Of a DNA stretch of 64,000 bases, positions 54,186 through 62,710 are shown piece by piece; the first letter of the stretch is position 1, and every line of letters begins with the position of its first letter. Source of the stretch: Mycobacteriales bacterium (GTDB lineage Bacteria; Actinomycetota; Actinomycetes; Mycobacteriales; SCTD01); contig JAUYQP010000049.1 in assembly GCA_030697205.1 (NCBI GenBank), positions 133,623 to 197,622 on the forward strand. The letters run 5' to 3'. The notes under the pieces are model-generated. The model searched no databases and had not been told where the DNA came from. It worked only from the letters and a program-made list of their open reading frames with translations. The position numbers and the translations under genes are program-made.

Positions 54186-55174
54186 TGGCTCGGATCGTGA
54201 TCGCGGACGACAGCCCCACTCTGCGCCGGATCGTCAGCAGCGTGCTGACGAAGGAGGGCCACGAGGTCATCCAGGCCGAGGACGGCATCGGTGCGGTGCA
54301 GGCGGTCTTCGCCCACCAACCCGACGCGGTCGTGCTCGACGTGCAGATGCCGCGGGTGTCCGGCTTCATCGCCGCACGGTTGCTCAAGGACGACTGGATG
54401 ACCGCGGACACGCCGGTGGTCATGCTCACCTCCCTCGACGCAGCCTCCGACCGCTACTGGGCGGGGCAGGCAGGCGTCGACCGCTACCTCACCAAGGACT
54501 TCGAGGCGCCCGAGCTCGCCGGCACCATCGACGAGGTGCTCATGGCGGCGACGGCGTCGCGCGGTGGGCGCCCGGCACTCAAGGCCGACCCGCTCGAGCT
54601 CAGCGAGGAGGACGTGCTCTCGCGGGTCTGCGACCTGCTCGACCGCAAGCTCTTCGAGTCCTCCGTCGCGCAGTCCGTCACCGCCATCGCCGCGACCGCG
54701 TCCGGCCTCGAGGCCTCGGTCGCCTCGCTGCTCGGCGTCCTGCAGCGCTTCGTCGGCTACGACCTCGCCGCGGTGCTGCTCGGTGCGGAGCGCCAGGCCT
54801 ACGTCGCGGTCGGTGGACCGACGGCCCAGCAGCACTACGAGGAGTTCATGAGCGCCTCCGCCGAGAGCGTCTCGTCGTACGGCGGTGAAGAGCTGTCCGT
54901 CGCCGCCCTCTCGACCCGGGTCGCCCAGGCCGGCGGCGCCCTCGTCGACGACCCGGACGACCTGCCGGGCGGTGCCGAGGGGGCCCGCATGGCGACGTTC
55001 GTGTCGATGCCGCTGCGCGGTCACGGTGGTGCCGTCGTCGGTGTCCTCGCGCTCTCGAGCGCCGTGAAGAACGCCTTCGGTGAGACCGCGTTGTCGACGC
55101 TCAAGCTCATCGAGGGCCCGGCCGCGATCGTCATCGACAACGCCCGTCTCGCGGGAGCGCGCGCCGGGGCCTGA
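54185..55174 (+). CDS. Response regulator with REC and GAF-like domains
   Basis: 329 residues from GTG 54185, sharing its G with the cheA stop (TAGTG). The receiver has IADDSPTLRR, LDVQMPRVSG, MLTSLD and YLTKDF. From about residue 160 a GAF-like domain follows (LLGVLQRFVGYDLAAVLLG, MATFVSMPLRGHGGAVVGV). There is no DNA-binding or enzyme output, so it probably acts by protein contact or as a phosphate sink. Confidence 0.88.
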   Translation: MARIVIADDSPTLRRIVSSVLTKEGHEVIQAEDGIGAVQAVFAHQPDAVVLDVQMPRVSGFIAARLLKDDWMTADTPVVMLTSLDAASDRYWAGQAGVDRYLTKDFEAPELAGTIDEVLMAATASRGGRPALKADPLELSEEDVLSRVCDLLDRKLFESSVAQSVTAIAATASGLEASVASLLGVLQRFVGYDLAAVLLGAERQAYVAVGGPTAQQHYEEFMSASAESVSSYGGEELSVAALSTRVAQAGGALVDDPDDLPGGAEGARMATFVSMPLRGHGGAVVGVLALSSAVKNAFGETALSTLKLIEGPAAIVIDNARLAGARAGA

Positions 55175-55217
55175 GCGCCCCTCGCGAACGTCCGACGCGC
55201 CGCCTACTGTGGAGCGG

Positions 55218-56960
55218 GTGCCGAACCGCCTGCTCCTGATCGCTGCCGGTGCCCTCGGCGGCACCGTTGTCCTCGGCGGGACCGCGCTCGCCCTCACCGG
55301 CAGCGATGTCCCGCGCGGCGTGGTCGTCGCTGGCGTCGACGTCGGTGGCGTGTCCGCCGCCGAGGCGCGCGGTCGGCTCGGCGCCGTGCTGCCCCGCACC
55401 ACCGCGCCGGTCAGGGTCGTCGTGGACGGCGAGGAGCGCACGATCGACCCGGTCGCGGCTGGGCTCTCGGTCGACCTCGACGCGACCGTCGACGCCCTCA
55501 CCGACACCAGTCCGCTCGACGGGCTGCGTGGCCTGTTCGGGGCCCGCCGCGAGGTCGAGCTGCGCACCGACGCCGACGACGCCACGCTCGCGGCCGCGGT
55601 CGCGGCGCTGAAGAAGGCCGTCGACCGACCGGCCCGCGAGGGCGCGGTCCGCTTCCAGGGCGCGACGCCGGTCGCGGTCCTGCCGCTCACCGGCCGGGTC
55701 CTCGACGCCGAGGCGACCGCGTCGGAGCTGCGCGACGAGTGGGTCACCGGCGAGCCGGTCGAGGCCGCGGTCGAGGTCACGCCGGTGAAGAGCACGGCCG
55801 AGGGGGTGCAGGCCGCGCTGACCAGCTTCGCGCGGCCCGCCGTCGCCGCACCCGTCACGGTCGACGTCGAGGGCAAGCCGCTCGTGGTGCGACCGGCCGA
55901 CATCGCGAAGGCCTTCTCGCTCGAGGCCGACAGCGAGGGCAACATCGCGCCCACTCTCAAGGGCGACGTGCTGCTGAAGGCGCTCGACGACCGGCTCGCC
56001 GCCGTGGAGCAGGAGCCGCTCGACGCCACCTTCGACGTCTCGAGCGGGACCCCCGTCGTGGTGCCCGGCAAGGACGGCAAGACCGTCGGCGCGGACGCGC
56101 TCGAGGCTGCCCTCAGCACGGTGCTGCGGTCGGCCGCCCCCCGGCGTACCTCCCTGGCCCTGGTCGTGACCCCGCCCCGGGTCACGACGGCGCTCGCGAA
56201 GACCCTCGGGGTGAAGGAGAAGGTCGGCGAGTTCACGACCTTCCACCCCTGCTGCCGGCCGAGGGTCACCAACATCCACCGCATCGCCGACATCGTCGAC
56301 GGCCACGTCGTGCTGCCGGGCGAGACCTACTCCCTCAACGGTGACGTGGGGGAGCGCGACCGCGCGCGCGGCTTCGTCGAGGCGCCGCAGATCCTCGAGG
56401 GGCAGTTCGTCGACCGGGTCGGCGGCGGGGTCTCGCAGTTCGCGACGACGCTCTACAACGCGACCTTCTTCGCCGGCATGCAGGACGTCGAGCACAAGCC
56501 CCACAGCTACTTCATCTCGCGCTACCCCGCCGGTCGCGAGGCCACCGTGTCGTTCCCCGCGCCGGACCTGAGGTGGAAGAACGACAGCCCGCACGGCGCG
56601 GTGATCATCACGCGCTACACCGAGCGCTCCATCACCGTCGAGCTGTGGGGGACCAAGAGGTACGACGAGATCGTGTCCGTCTCGTCGCCGCGCACCCGGA
56701 TGCGCACCTTCGGCACGCAGTACGTCCAGCGGGCCGACTGCACCGCCGCCTCCGGCGCCAACGGCTTCGACATCACGATCACGCGGATCTTCAAGAAGGG
56801 CGGCGTGGAGGTCAAGCGCGACAGCGCCAAGCACCGCTACCTGCCCGAGCCGCGCTTCATCTGCGGCCCGCCCCCGCGCCGCGCCGCGCCCGCTCCGTCT
56901 GGATCCCCGTCCCCGTCCGCGTCCCCGAAGCCCGCACCGTCCGCGTCCCCCACCGCCTGA
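55218..56960 (+). CDS. VanW family protein with peptidoglycan-binding-like repeats
   Basis: 580 residues from GTG 55218 (GTG 55209 also possible). An N-terminal signal anchor (LLLIAAGALGGTVVLGGTAL) precedes two PG-binding-4-like domains (VVAGVDVGGVSAAEARGRL is the first) and the VanW domain (FHPCCRPRVTNIHRIADIV, GEFTT, GGGVSQFATTLYNATFFAG). The end is a Pro/Ser tail. VanW proteins occur in vancomycin clusters and generally in Gram-positives; a role in wall assembly is likely but unproven. Confidence 0.9.
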   Translation: MPNRLLLIAAGALGGTVVLGGTALALTGSDVPRGVVVAGVDVGGVSAAEARGRLGAVLPRTTAPVRVVVDGEERTIDPVAAGLSVDLDATVDALTDTSPLDGLRGLFGARREVELRTDADDATLAAAVAALKKAVDRPAREGAVRFQGATPVAVLPLTGRVLDAEATASELRDEWVTGEPVEAAVEVTPVKSTAEGVQAALTSFARPAVAAPVTVDVEGKPLVVRPADIAKAFSLEADSEGNIAPTLKGDVLLKALDDRLAAVEQEPLDATFDVSSGTPVVVPGKDGKTVGADALEAALSTVLRSAAPRRTSLALVVTPPRVTTALAKTLGVKEKVGEFTTFHPCCRPRVTNIHRIADIVDGHVVLPGETYSLNGDVGERDRARGFVEAPQILEGQFVDRVGGGVSQFATTLYNATFFAGMQDVEHKPHSYFISRYPAGREATVSFPAPDLRWKNDSPHGAVIITRYTERSITVELWGTKRYDEIVSVSSPRTRMRTFGTQYVQRADCTAASGANGFDITITRIFKKGGVEVKRDSAKHRYLPEPRFICGPPPRRAAPAPSGSPSPSASPKPAPSASPTA

Positions 56961-57013: not shown

Positions 57014-57132
57014 TGTCTCGGGTCAGGGTGGTCGCTCTGGTGACCCCGATCCACCGAGACGCCACGGCACGCGCCCGCTCAGTGCTGTCTCGGGTCAGGG
57101 TGGTCGCTCTGGTGACCCCGATCCACCGAGAC
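57014..57132 (+). repeat. Left inverted repeat: two 47-bp hairpins (57014-57060 and 57086-57132)
   Basis: The two 47-bp copies are identical and start 72 bp apart. Each has outer arms GTCTCGG/CCGAGAC and inner arms GGTCA/TGACC. The whole 119-bp segment is the inverted counterpart of 58173-58291, at about 105 of 119 positions. Confidence 0.93.
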
Positions 57133-57205
57133 GATGCCCGGTGACTGTCCACAGATCTCGCACGACGGGCCCGCAAGGCGGTCGAGGCGGCCACTGTGTC
57201 GAGTC

Positions 57206-58153
57206 ATGACGACGGCACCTGAGCCAGTCCAGCCCACGTGGCGCGATCTGCTCGTCCAGCAAGACGGCGTGATCAGCCGTGCCCAGGCTCTGCGCAGTGG
57301 CATGACCGCCGCCGGGTGGAAGTGGCAGTTCACGAGCAAGCGGTGGCAGCACGTCCTGCCCGGTGTGGCCGTGGCGCACCGCGGAGTGCCCAGTGATCGC
57401 GAGCGTGCGTGGGCGGCGGTGCTGGCCGCTGACGAGCACGCCGCCCTGACGGGTGACGCCGCCCTGATCGAGCTCGGCATGACGCTGCCCCGTCCCGCCG
57501 TGATCCACGTGGCGACGCCGGGTCGCATCAAGACGCCGCCGAAGTCAGGCGCCGATCACCTCGACCCGCCGCTCGTCGTCGTCCCCCACCGCGTCGTCCG
57601 GCTCGTCGACCTGAAGCACCCCGTGAAGTCACCCCCGCTCCTGCGCGCACCTGCGGCCGTCCTGCACTCGGCAGCGTGGGCAGTCAGCGACCGAGCCGCG
57701 GAGTGGCGGGTCGCCGCGGCCGTCCAGCAGCGACTCGTCACGGTTGCCTCCGTACGCTCCGCGGCCCAGGTGCTCCATCACGTGCCGCGCCGCGCGTTGA
57801 CGCTGGAGGTCCTGGAGGACGTGGACCTGGGCGCGACAGCGCGCAGTGAGCTCGACTTCCTGGGGCTGCTCCGTGAGCTCGGCCTGCCGCTGCCCGATCG
57901 GCTTCAGCGCCCCGTGCGCACGAGCACGGGAAAGCGCTACCTGGACGCCTGGTGGGAGCGGTGGCGGCTCGCCGTCGAGATCGACGGTGCGCAGCACATG
58001 GACGTGCGCGGATGGGACGCCGACACCCTGCGGGCCAACTCCATCCTGGTCGAGCACCTCTCCGACCGGGCGTTGCTGATGCGGTTCACGACAGGAAACC
58101 TGCGCCACGACCGCTCGCTGGTCGGACAGCAGCTGACCTCCGTCATGCGCTGA
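57206..58153 (+). CDS. AbiEi-like winged helix plus Vsr/DUF559-type nuclease-like protein
   Basis: 315 residues from ATG 57206. The N-terminal 55 residues resemble the AbiEi antitoxin helix-turn-helix (LVQQDGVISRAQALRSGMTA, WQHVLPGVAVAHRG). The middle is variable. The C-terminal 100 residues fit the Vsr-like DUF559 fold of the PD-(D/E)xK class: RSELDFLGLLRELGLP, RYLDAWWERWRLAVEIDG, AQH. The acidic residues expected for metal-dependent cleavage are present. No toxin partner adjoins it. The gene lies alone between inverted hairpin pairs, which suggests the protein may act on those repeats. Confidence 0.8.
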   Translation: MTTAPEPVQPTWRDLLVQQDGVISRAQALRSGMTAAGWKWQFTSKRWQHVLPGVAVAHRGVPSDRERAWAAVLAADEHAALTGDAALIELGMTLPRPAVIHVATPGRIKTPPKSGADHLDPPLVVVPHRVVRLVDLKHPVKSPPLLRAPAAVLHSAAWAVSDRAAEWRVAAAVQQRLVTVASVRSAAQVLHHVPRRALTLEVLEDVDLGATARSELDFLGLLRELGLPLPDRLQRPVRTSTGKRYLDAWWERWRLAVEIDGAQHMDVRGWDADTLRANSILVEHLSDRALLMRFTTGNLRHDRSLVGQQLTSVMR

Positions 58154-58172
58154 GGCTGCGGAGGTCAGTCGC

Positions 58173-58291
58173 GTCTCGGTCGATCGGGGTCACCAGAGCG
58201 ACCACTCTCGCCCGAGACAGCGCTGGGCGGGTGGGCGCGGTGGCGTCTCGGTCGATCGGGGTCACCAGAGCGACCACTCTCGCCCGAGACA
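58173..58291 (-). repeat. Right inverted repeat: two 47-bp hairpins (58173-58219 and 58245-58291)
   Basis: The two copies are identical to each other and 72 bp apart, as on the left, but differ from the left copies at four of 47 positions when inverted. The 25-bp spacers of the two sides also match at 19 of 25 positions when inverted. Confidence 0.93.
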
Positions 58292-58341: not shown

Positions 58342-59745
58342 CTAGGTGAGGGACCAGTCCTGGCCGGCGGGGGTGTCAGTGACCGCGACGCCGAGGGCTG
58401 CGAGCTCGTCGCGCAGCCGGTCGGAACCGGCCCAGTCCTTGGCGGCGCGCGCGGCCGCGCGCGCGTCGAGCAGCTCCTGCGCGCCCGCGGGCAGCACGGC
58501 CTGCTCCACCGGCTGGCCGACGAGGCGGGTGAGGTCGAGGCCGAGCAGCCCGTCGGCCCACGCGAACAGCTCGAACAGCGAGCCGGCCGGCAGGTCCGAC
58601 TTCGCCGCCCGGCGCAGCGCGACGACGGCCCGCGGCGTGTCGAGGTCGTCGTCGAAGGCGTCGAGCACCTCGAGGCGAACCTCGGCGCACATCGGCTTCG
58701 ACGGCTCCTCGGCCCACGCGGCGACCTGCCGCCGCCACGCCGTCAGCTGCCGGTCAGCCGCCTCGAGGCCCTCCCAGGACAGGTTGGCCTGCTGGCGGTA
58801 GCGGGTCTGCAGGAAGGCCAGTCGCAGCGCGAGCGGGTCGAGCCCGCGCTCGGCGAGGTCCGAGACGAGCACGACGTTGCCGGTCGACTTCGCCATCTTG
58901 CGGCCCTCGAAGAGCAGGTGCTCGCCGTGGACCCAGCGGGTGACGACCTCGTGGCCGACCGCGGCGTCGGACTGGGCGCGCTCGTCCTCGTGGTGCGGGA
59001 AGCGCAGGTCGATGCCGCCGAGGTGCAGGTCGATGCGGTCACCGATGAGGTCCAGCGACATCGCCGAGCACTCGATGTGCCAGCCGGGGAAGCCGTGTCC
59101 CCACGGCGACGGCCAGGTCATCTCGCGGGCCTCGCCGGCGCGCTTCCACAGCGCCCAGTCGGCGTGGAAGCGCTTGCCCGTCGCGGTCGACTCGCCCGTC
59201 GCCCCATGACCGGCCCGCAGGTCGTCGAGGCGGTTCCCGGAGATCGCACCGTACGACGGGAAGGAGCGCGCGTCGTAGTAGACGGTGCCGTCGTCCCCGA
59301 CGTACGCGTGGCCCTTGTCCACGAGCCGGGCGATCAGGTCGATCATGAGGCCGATGCACTCCGACGCCCGCGGGTAGGCGTCCGCGGGGCGCACCCCCAG
59401 GGCGGCGAGGTCGCGGTGGAACGCCTCCTCGTAGAAGCGCGCGACCGCGAAGGGGTCCTTGCCCTCGGCCTTCGCCTGCGCGAGCAGCTTGTCCTCGCCG
59501 TCGGCGTCGACGGCGGTGTCGTCCTGCAGGTGGCCGACGTCGGTGATGTTCTGCGCGAGGCGGACCCGCAGCCCGTGGGCCTGGGCGACGCGGCGGACGA
59601 GGTCGCCGAGCAGGAAGGTCCGCAGGTTGCCGACGTGGGCGTAGCGGTAGACCGTCGGCCCGCAGGCGTAGACGGTCAGCAGCCCCGGCGTCGCGGGGAC
59701 GATCTCCTCGACCGCACGGGTCCTGGTGTCGGTGAGCCTCAGCAC
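58342..59745 (-). CDS. cysS: Cysteinyl-tRNA synthetase
   Basis: 467 residues from GTG 59745. Zinc and HIGH region VYACGPTVYRYAHVGNLRTF, then QNITDVGHLQDD, GWHIECSAM, GGIDLRFPHHEDERAQSDA and the KMSKS loop as KMAKSTGN. A C-terminal helical anticodon domain ends in LRDELAALGVAVTDTPAG. It charges tRNA-Cys. The ITDVGHL and anticodon domain argue against the MshC ligase. KMAKS and some loop differences suggest it may be a second cysS paralogue. Confidence 0.88.
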   Translation of the reverse strand: MLRLTDTRTRAVEEIVPATPGLLTVYACGPTVYRYAHVGNLRTFLLGDLVRRVAQAHGLRVRLAQNITDVGHLQDDTAVDADGEDKLLAQAKAEGKDPFAVARFYEEAFHRDLAALGVRPADAYPRASECIGLMIDLIARLVDKGHAYVGDDGTVYYDARSFPSYGAISGNRLDDLRAGHGATGESTATGKRFHADWALWKRAGEAREMTWPSPWGHGFPGWHIECSAMSLDLIGDRIDLHLGGIDLRFPHHEDERAQSDAAVGHEVVTRWVHGEHLLFEGRKMAKSTGNVVLVSDLAERGLDPLALRLAFLQTRYRQQANLSWEGLEAADRQLTAWRRQVAAWAEEPSKPMCAEVRLEVLDAFDDDLDTPRAVVALRRAAKSDLPAGSLFELFAWADGLLGLDLTRLVGQPVEQAVLPAGAQELLDARAAARAAKDWAGSDRLRDELAALGVAVTDTPAGQDWSLT

Positions 59746-59845
59746 GCTCCCGAGAGTAGGCGGGTGAACCCACCTGCCCTGCTCTGCGTATGCAACACCG
59801 AGCAAGGTGCACGCCTCACCCACACCTGAAACAGGGGGTACGCCG

Positions 59846-62710
59846 GTGTCGTCCGGTGCCACACGTCGTCCGTTGTCCGTCCTGCTCGCCCTCGCGCTCG
59901 CCGGAGGAGGTGCGGTCGTCCTGGCCGCGCCGGCCGCCGCCGTGCCCACGGGCGGCTTCCTCGTGTACGGCCTGACGGCCACCGACCAGATCACCAGCTT
60001 CCGCACGGCCGCGCCCGCGACGCGCACCGCGCCCGTCGCGATCACCGGCCTCACCGCCGGCGACGACGTCGTGGGCATCGACATCCGCCCGGCCACCGGC
60101 CAGCTCTACGGCATCGTCAAGGGCTCCGCCGCCGACCGGGTCATCACGATCGACCCGGCCACGGGTGCGGCAACCGTCATCGGCGCCCCGATCTCCCCGC
60201 GGCTGTCCGGCACGAGCTTCGGCGTGGACTTCAACCCCGTCCCGGACCGCATCCGCGTCATCAGCGACGCCGACCAGAACCTCCGGCTCAACCCGGTCAC
60301 GGGCGGCGCCTCGGCGGTCACGGCGCCGAGCACGACGGGCGACGGCACCCTGGCCTACGCGACCGGGGACGCCGGCACCGGCACCGACCCGGTCGCCACC
60401 GCGGCCGGGTACACCGACAGCGTCGCGGGCACCACCATGACGACGCTCTACGACATCGAGACCGCCCGCGACGTCCTCGTCACGCAGGCGCCGCCGAACA
60501 ACGGCACCCTCAACACCGTCGGCACCGGTCTCGGCATCGGTGACGTCGTCGCCGCTGCCGGCTTCGACATCGCGGCCCCTGGCAACGAGGCCTTCGCGGC
60601 CCTGACCGTGGCCGGCACGACCAACCTCTACTCCGTCAACCTGACCACCGGTGCGGCGACCGTCGTCGCCGGCGGCCTCGGGACCGTCGACGACATCACC
60701 GTCGCGGTGCCGCGTGTCACCATCGCGGCGACCGGCCTCACCGAGGGCGGCAGCGCGACCGTCACGGTGACCCGCTCCGGCGACACCTCGACCGCGGCCA
60801 CCGTGACCTACACGACCGGCAGCGGCTCGGCGACGTCCGACACCGACTTCGCCGCGACCTCCGGCACCCTGTCCTTCGCGGCCGGTGAGGGCGCCAAGAC
60901 CTTCAGCGTCCCGCTCACGCAGGACAACCTGGTCGAGGGCGCGGAGACCTTCACCGTCACCCTCGGCACCTCGACCGCCGACCACGTCCTGTCCCCGGCC
61001 GTGAGCACCTTCACGATCACCGACGACGAGACCGGTCGGGCCTACGGCCTCACCACCGCCAACGAGATCACGACCTTCTCGGTCCAGGCTCCCGGCACGG
61101 CCACCCTGACCCGGGCGATCACCGGCCTCGCCGCCGGTGACGACGTCGTCGGCATCGACGTCCGCCCTGCGACCGGTGAGCTGTTCGGCATCGTCAAGGG
61201 CACGGCCTCGGACCGCATCGTCACCATCGACCCGGCCACGGGCACGGCGACGGTCGTCGGTGCTCCGATCAGCCCGCGACTGTCGGGCACGGCCTTCGGC
61301 GTGGACTTCAACCCGGTCCCCGACCGGATCCGCGTCGTCAGCGACGCCGACCAGAACCTTCGGCTCAACCCGGTGACGGGTGGCGCGTCCACCGTGACCG
61401 CGCCGAGCACGACCGGCGACGTCGACCTGCAGTACGCCGCGGGCGACGCCAACGCCGGTCAGAACCCGGGCGTCGTCGGTACCGGCTACACCAACAGCGT
61501 CGCGGGTGCCACGACCACCACGCTCTACGACCTCGACGCCACCGGTGACCGCCTCGTCACGCAGAACCCGCCCAACAACGGCACGCTCAACACCGTGGGT
61601 CCGCTCGGCGTCGACATCCAGAACGGCTCGGACCTCGACATCTCGCCCGCGGGCGGCACGGCCTTCGCCGCGCTGACCGTCGGCGGGGTCCCCGCGCTCT
61701 ACCGCGTCAACCTCACCAGCGGTGCGGCGACCTCACTCGGCGCGCTCTCGCCCGCCACCACCGAGGACCTCGCGCTCGCCTCGCCCGGCCGCCTCGCGGT
61801 CTCTGCGGAGACCGCGACCGTCGCGGAGTCGGTGGGCACTGCCACCGTCACGGTGACGCGCAGCACGCCCAACGGCACCGTCACCGTGGACTACGCCACC
61901 GGCGGCGGCACCGCGACCGCGGGCAGCGACTACACCGCGACCAGCGGCACGCTGACCTTCGCCGACGGCGAGGCCAGCAAGACGATCTCGGTGCCCGTCA
62001 CCAACGACACGGCCGACGAGCCGGCCGAGACCTTCGTCGTCACGCTGACCAACCCGACCGGTGGCGCGTCGCTCGGTGCGACCACGGCCCAGACCGTGAC
62101 GATCACCGACGACGACGGGGCGATCACCTCGCTGACCCTCGCGACGGCCGGCCCGCGGGCGGCCCGCGGCGCCCCCGCCCGCATCTCCGGGACGCTGTCC
62201 GGACCGTCCGGTGGCCTCGGCGGCAAGACCGTCGAGCTCGTCGCGCGCCAGCAGTACACGACGCGCACCGCGGTCGTCCGCACCTACACGACGGCGGCCG
62301 ACGGCAGCTTCGGCGGCGAGGTCGTCCCGACCGTCAACACCGTGCTGTTCGCCCGCTACGCCGGCAGCACCACCGACGACCTCGCGGGCTCGCAGTCGCC
62401 GCAGGTCCTCCAGGTGGTCCGCACCAGCATCAACGCCAAGGCGGCGCTCAACGAGCTCGACGGCCCGATCGCCACGGCCCGTATCTCCGGTGACACCGCG
62501 CCCGCCAAGCCGGGCTCGATCGTGCGTCTCCAGCGGGTCGTCAACGGCCAATTGCGCTCGTTCGACGCGGCCGCCCGGGTCGACAGCGCAGGCAAGTGGA
62601 CGCTCACCCGTCGCCTGTCGCGCGGCACCTACGTGCTGCGCGTGACCATCGGCGCGACGCACAGCAACGCGGCCGGCACCTCCAACGAGGTCGTCGTCCG
62701 GGTCAGCTGA
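59846..62710 (+). CDS. Large secreted protein with duplicated DUF4394 and Calx-beta domains
   Basis: 954 residues from GTG 59846 with AGGGGG eight bases upstream. A signal peptide is followed by DUF4394 (GDDVVGIDIRPATGQLYG, FGVDFNPVPDRIRVISDADQ), a Calx-beta domain (GSATVTVTRSGDTSTAATVT), a second DUF4394, a second Calx-beta (SVGTATVTVTRSTPNGTVTV) and about 190 residues of Ig-like sequence. The duplicated unit is 359 residues and 1077 bp. It is probably a surface or matrix protein that may bind calcium through Calx-beta. Its ligand is unknown. Confidence 0.9.
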   Translation: MSSGATRRPLSVLLALALAGGGAVVLAAPAAAVPTGGFLVYGLTATDQITSFRTAAPATRTAPVAITGLTAGDDVVGIDIRPATGQLYGIVKGSAADRVITIDPATGAATVIGAPISPRLSGTSFGVDFNPVPDRIRVISDADQNLRLNPVTGGASAVTAPSTTGDGTLAYATGDAGTGTDPVATAAGYTDSVAGTTMTTLYDIETARDVLVTQAPPNNGTLNTVGTGLGIGDVVAAAGFDIAAPGNEAFAALTVAGTTNLYSVNLTTGAATVVAGGLGTVDDITVAVPRVTIAATGLTEGGSATVTVTRSGDTSTAATVTYTTGSGSATSDTDFAATSGTLSFAAGEGAKTFSVPLTQDNLVEGAETFTVTLGTSTADHVLSPAVSTFTITDDETGRAYGLTTANEITTFSVQAPGTATLTRAITGLAAGDDVVGIDVRPATGELFGIVKGTASDRIVTIDPATGTATVVGAPISPRLSGTAFGVDFNPVPDRIRVVSDADQNLRLNPVTGGASTVTAPSTTGDVDLQYAAGDANAGQNPGVVGTGYTNSVAGATTTTLYDLDATGDRLVTQNPPNNGTLNTVGPLGVDIQNGSDLDISPAGGTAFAALTVGGVPALYRVNLTSGAATSLGALSPATTEDLALASPGRLAVSAETATVAESVGTATVTVTRSTPNGTVTVDYATGGGTATAGSDYTATSGTLTFADGEASKTISVPVTNDTADEPAETFVVTLTNPTGGASLGATTAQTVTITDDDGAITSLTLATAGPRAARGAPARISGTLSGPSGGLGGKTVELVARQQYTTRTAVVRTYTTAADGSFGGEVVPTVNTVLFARYAGSTTDDLAGSQSPQVLQVVRTSINAKAALNELDGPIATARISGDTAPAKPGSIVRLQRVVNGQLRSFDAAARVDSAGKWTLTRRLSRGTYVLRVTIGATHSNAAGTSNEVVVRVS

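Follow-up and report, generated by a model that had tools for sequence, protein, structure and literature searches.

An AbiEi-HTH/DUF559-type nuclease gene bracketed by a REP-like palindrome family: a probable nuclease-based analogue of REP/RAYT systems

Results

Anatomy of the locus

The DNA analyzed here (the window) is a 64,000-nucleotide stretch of a Mycobacteriales genome. It contains a predicted nuclease gene that lies between a VanW-family gene and cysS and is bracketed by two hairpin doublets (Table 1). As originally predicted, the hairpins of each doublet are identical and spaced 72 bp apart, the right doublet is inverted relative to the left, and no other gene lies between them; the hairpin length was corrected from 47 to 46 bp. 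The match between the left 119-bp side and the inverted right side, spacers included, had been put at about 105 positions and is exactly 105/119 on recount. Inverted similarity between the two sides reaches 150 nt at 85%. This extent, and the recurrence of the hairpin elsewhere in the genome, exclude a chance arrangement.

Table 1. Features at the nuclease locus, in window positions.
Feature	Position	Strand	Basis
VanW-family gene, left neighbour and synteny marker (true start perhaps downstream)	55080..56960	+	Domain models
Hairpin copy L1, A orientation, 46 bp	57015..57060	+	Window sequence and dispersed copies
Hairpin copy L2, exactly as L1	57087..57132	+	Window sequence
TCCACAG box, between left hairpins and start codon	57148..57154	+	Upstream comparison of homologues
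AbiEi-HTH + DUF559/Vsr-like (EDxHD) nuclease gene, 315 aa	57206..58153	+	Domain models, alignment, predicted structure
Predicted catalytic residues E215, D247, E258, D260, H264, D273	57848..58024	+	Alignment of 27 sequences
Hairpin copy R1, inverted	58173..58218	-	Window sequence
Hairpin copy R2, exactly as R1	58245..58290	-	Window sequence
Cysteinyl-tRNA synthetase gene cysS, right neighbour and synteny marker (true start perhaps downstream)	58342..60096	-	Domain models

The core of the window repeat is GTCTCGG...CCGAGAC, and single copies of the window hairpins fold modestly better than shuffled sequences (z from -1.6 to -2.6). Across 28 different copies that were read, the 7-bp outer stem is near-invariant and the inner stem occurs as two alternative types that differ by compensatory changes. 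The hairpin itself is therefore conserved.

The nuclease gene has an alternative in-frame ATG upstream, at position 57134. The TCCACAG box is present upstream of 35/48 homologues outside genus g21, at 0/29 loci within g21 and in 2.3% of random windows. This box is strand-specific and resembles the core of a DnaA box.

The encoded protein

The gene product had been described as an AbiEi-like HTH joined to a Vsr/DUF559-type nuclease domain with its acidic residues kept, and this description is borne out by AbiEi models, the predicted fold and intact E, D and H residues. The N-terminal half matches the PADLOC AbiEi model (E 1.7e-8). For the C-terminal nuclease domain, relatives match DUF559 and REase_MTES_1575, while the window protein scores 12.3 bits against the Pfam DUF559 model, which is below the cut-off. 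DUF559 is a widespread domain of unknown function. The AlphaFold model of the window protein has a pLDDT of 91.6, and its Foldseek matches include the AbiEi antitoxin 6y8q, the I-Bth0305I catalytic domain and AbaSI/PvuRts1I (the last at modest E-values). The I-Bth0305I homing-endonuclease domain and AbaSI/PvuRts1I are the nearest structural matches of the nuclease domain, in which a PD-(D/E)XK/EDxHD fold with acidic residues and a histidine is predicted. E215, E258, D260, H264 and D273 are invariant in the aligned sequences, and D247 is present in at least 90% of them. The median dN/dS in the well-sampled clade B of the gene is 0.17, so the gene is maintained under purifying selection. A tblastn search of plasmids with the window protein gave no match.

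Dispersal of the hairpins

The window hairpin recurs across its own 4.0-Mb genome in doublets of the same ~72-bp period, in groups of three or four and also alone, a form of occurrence that the original prediction had singled out for checking. The copies are found at intergenic sites and gene ends. In a codon-usage test no true copy proved to be intragenic, as compared to 62% of random positions. Because it is dispersed, extragenic and conserved in structure, the window repeat can be described as a REP-like family of extragenic palindromes. It has the features by which REPs are recognized, namely a short palindrome, extragenic position, many copies and frequent doublets, with copies numbering in the tens rather than the hundreds. 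A loose stem pattern, CTCGG..CCGAG, was discarded as too unspecific (1367 sites genome-wide).

Dispersal is not confined to the window genome. Hairpins taken from 14 loci are dispersed in most of their source genomes, with up to 56 matches (palindromes count twice) and few in some, and they were absent from the four genomes lacking the gene that were searched. When all orthologue hairpins were pooled as a query, each was dispersed mainly in its own genome. The complete genome G040 holds 15 dispersed copies with unrelated flanks, and the unit is therefore the ~50-bp hairpin itself. The search for empty sites in G040 covered a genus represented by this single genome, and a comparison of clade-B orthologous flanks revealed a partial hairpin deletion in L299 and nothing more; neither yielded a clean empty site. 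G040 also contains another family of dispersed palindromes, GGTGCCTCGACCCC...GGGGTCGAGG (for example at 3432523, 853434 and 441538).

Many hairpins were also found in genomes without a detected gene to match (G077, G104, G112, G113 and G005). There is a published precedent in REPs that persist after deletion of their RAYT (PMC3733652). G005 contains at least 19 near-identical hairpins (L195-L213) with a conserved left tag, CCGACACGAGAC, for which no cognate gene was detected; the only homologue detected in this genome has a different hairpin. In Intrasporangium chromatireducens, at least nine hairpins are arranged in tandem with a 63-bp period (G061:C64:1796-2348), an arrangement that points to local amplification.

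Flanking hairpins in orthologues and relatives

In most gene-bearing genomes of the same family, orthologues with 45-53% amino acid identity occupy the interval from vanW, or the gene next to it, to cysS. A strict pattern search found no window hairpin in the orthologues at this locus. Read directly, however, their flanks carry other hairpins on both sides, which differ in sequence from genome to genome and are alike on the left and right within a genome. Homologues lacking hairpins had been named as an observation that would count against the original prediction. The absence held for the window hairpin only, as each orthologue has its own genome-specific hairpins on both flanks, and the objection was dropped. 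In G007 and G010 the gene occupies another neighbourhood and flanking hairpins are still present. Decayed gene copies were seen at the vanW/cysS locus in L060 and L067, where the flanking hairpins look degraded too.

Two-sided flanking was also assessed at loci found by a profile search of genome contigs (7-sequence alignment) in named relatives including Intrasporangium, Terrabacter, Phycicoccus, Pedococcus, Luteipulveratus, Dermacoccus and Nostocoides. The null was the left/right flank similarity of 136 ORFs that neighbour the gene at these loci. Flank likeness exceeded 95% of the null at 23/35 testable loci of these relatives and exceeded the null maximum at 17/35. About one third of the tested relatives fail this test; L135, L144, L146, L147 and L148 are partial matches, and others, upon inspection, have a hairpin at one flank or at both.

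Pairing of hairpin type with gene clade

The search for paralogues that had been suggested at the outset found them in the window genome itself, where two copies (L031/L032) carry different hairpins. The same is true of paralogues within G040 and within G037. A third homologue of the window genome, L033, has no convincing flanking pair.

The suggested check of co-variation between hairpin and gene was performed in one genus of 61 species. Hairpin A is present in 8/10 species with the clade-A gene and in 6/51 without it (p=3.7e-5, kinship ignored), although some clade-A matches are the gene's own flanking copies only. Hairpin B is present in 26/26 species with the clade-B gene and in 17/35 without it (p=3.5e-6; p=2e-8 for copy counts, which saturate; kinship again ignored, as species were counted without correction for phylogeny). 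No cross-association was seen in the 61 species between gene A and hairpin B (p=0.67) or between gene B and hairpin A (p=0.99). Hairpin type thus follows gene clade as a double dissociation. Nearly every clade-B gene has clade-B hairpins at its flanks, and these hairpins contain 44 compensatory double changes, a number reached in 0/500 shuffles.

Short DUF559 genes in other phyla

The comparison was extended to short DUF559 proteins that lack the AbiEi domain, from replicons of Alphaproteobacteria, Neisseria and Deinococcus (L231-L242, L348-L351). Hairpins of the CCCTCYCC..GGRGAGGG type were read by eye beside 12/12 short DUF559 genes. In four stretches of 40-43 kb (168 kb), 11/14 such hairpins are found inside or next to the one DUF559 gene; the binomial p of ~4e-17 is optimistic because the hairpin pattern was written after these loci had been viewed, but the clustering is still plain. 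In Sphingomonas parapaucimobilis, all four hairpins found in 43 kb are located at the DUF559 gene. The flanks of E. coli ycjD contain no such hairpin pair and have a terminator-like hairpin only.

Discussion

The protein joins an AbiEi-type domain to an intact EDxHD nuclease, and its gene regularly lies between copies of its own palindrome. Together with the binding of inverted repeats by AbiEi antitoxins (PMC7319586), this suggests that the protein recognizes and cleaves that palindrome. We consider it probable that the REP-like element and its dedicated gene form a nuclease-based analogue of REP/RAYT, in which the protein recognizes its cognate palindrome and maintains or spreads it. From the observed anatomy, dispersal, two-sided flanking, clade specificity, active-site residues and purifying selection, we infer binding, cleavage and a causal role in spread or maintenance. 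The AbiEi-like N-terminal domain would recognize the cognate palindrome, either as an inverted repeat or as an extruded hairpin, and the DUF559/EDxHD endonuclease domain would nick or cut the DNA at this site or next to it. As the break is repaired or replicated, the ~46-bp hairpin may be copied, duplicated in tandem or relocated into extragenic sites. Under this scheme the gene would persist as a single copy between its own hairpins and be inherited for the most part vertically, and the hairpin and the specificity of the protein would diverge together.

The main alternative, which appears unlikely, is that the nuclease is a domesticated host enzyme that processes cruciforms or hairpins, or acts in Vsr-like mismatch repair, and controls repeats that spread otherwise. 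It is based on the Vsr-like fold and on the precedent of VsrA, a Caulobacter DUF559 protein proposed to be a Vsr-like mismatch-repair endonuclease (PMC12907096). Strong purifying selection and single-copy, mostly syntenic inheritance also agree with a host function. However, a general repair enzyme needs neither genome-specific hairpins on two flanks nor clade-specific pairing, and no other mobilizer of the repeats was found, with no Y1_Tnp in the window genome or in 23 others of the family.

A regulatory role is improbable. The palindromes would in that case be operators of AbiEi-type autoregulation or insulating terminators, and the dispersed copies a regulon or terminator set. Their occurrence on both sides of the gene, including downstream of it, between convergent genes and in tandem arrays (as in G061) does not fit such a role, and neither do the completely different hairpin sequences of the orthologues. 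The conserved upstream element, moreover, is the separate TCCACAG box. These observations stand against the position of the hairpins at intergenic sites and gene ends and the finding that AbiEi antitoxins bind 23-bp inverted repeats in their own promoter (PMC7319586).

It is very improbable that the whole unit is an autonomous mobile element with the doublets as terminal inverted repeats, the nuclease as transposase and solo hairpins as remnants. The extended inverted doublets and the relocated yet flanked genes of G007 and G010 would be expected of such an element, but several like copies of a full unit were not seen in any one genome, paralogues are divergent with different hairpins, and most same-family loci are syntenic with no target duplications shown. 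Finally, mere coincidence, with a functionally unconnected gene that happens to lie in an intergenic region rich in REPs, might draw some plausibility from the preference of REP-like repeats for gene ends and from the convergent neighbours, but it is hardly credible given the neighbour-gene null, the control genomes, the double dissociation and the clustering in other phyla.

To our knowledge, REP-like palindromes are widespread in bacteria and the GTAG class alone has a proposed enzyme. It is possible, and proposed only tentatively, that DUF559-type nucleases overall, in Actinobacteria, Alphaproteobacteria, Neisseria and Deinococcus, are dedicated mobilizers of a large class of palindromic repeats without a known enzyme, acting via nuclease-and-repair copying and not by HUH transposition. 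The link between DUF559 and repeats offers a function for the gene family and a candidate engine for orphan repeats. The matched pairs of protein and hairpin allow direct study of sequence- and structure-specific recognition, and, if cleavage is true, the many natural pairs are a ready set for studying the co-evolution of nuclease and target.

Comparison with known systems

Each half of the protein resembles a known system. The N-terminal half fits the AbiEi models and structure 6y8q of the AbiE type IV toxin-antitoxin systems, but the C-terminal half is a nuclease, and no AbiEii (DUF1814) toxin gene lies beside the gene, which adjoins vanW and cysS both in the window and at syntenic loci. The C-terminal fold and active-site layout are those of Vsr/DUF559 and EDxHD homing endonucleases such as I-Bth0305I. 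Known members of that group are not described as repeat-associated, however, and the gene studied here has no intron or self-splicing host. No literature linking DUF559 to palindromic repeats, REPs or inverted repeats was found among open-access papers.

Among repeats, the CGTC REPs are reported to lack a dedicated transposase and their families are mostly alphaproteobacterial (Di Nocera 2013 survey, PMC3733652). The hairpins described here are likewise repeat families without a dedicated transposase, but those at alphaproteobacterial DUF559 genes were read as CCCTCYCC-type palindromes.

The closest parallel in architecture is REP/RAYT (TnpA-REP, REPtron). RAYT transposases are flanked by their own REP hairpins. 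The present gene likewise has its cognate palindromes on either side, with further copies dispersed through the genome. In both systems a single-copy gene is flanked by its own short, extragenic, lineage-specific palindromes, and a genome can harbour several such pairs of gene and repeat. The enzymes differ, an AbiEi-HTH + DUF559/EDxHD nuclease here as compared to a Y1 HUH transposase in RAYT, and so do the hairpins, which here are ~45-55 bp and had no GTAG tag at the hairpin foot in the copies read. The predicted absence of a transposase is upheld in that no Y1_Tnp/RAYT transposase (PF01797) was found in the window genome or in 23 same-family genomes, and a RAYT acting in trans was rejected on this basis. 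The view of the locus as a REP/RAYT-like unit in which a nuclease replaces the transposase is supported by the dispersed hairpins, the genome-specific two-sided flanks and the clade pairing. The system is thus REP/RAYT-like in its working but not a member, because the defining Y1 transposase is absent. This partnership of nuclease and repeat looks previously undescribed: the architecture is known from RAYTs, while the enzyme, domains and repeats are unrelated. If architecture is weighed over enzyme, the system could be classed with the REP/RAYT kind.
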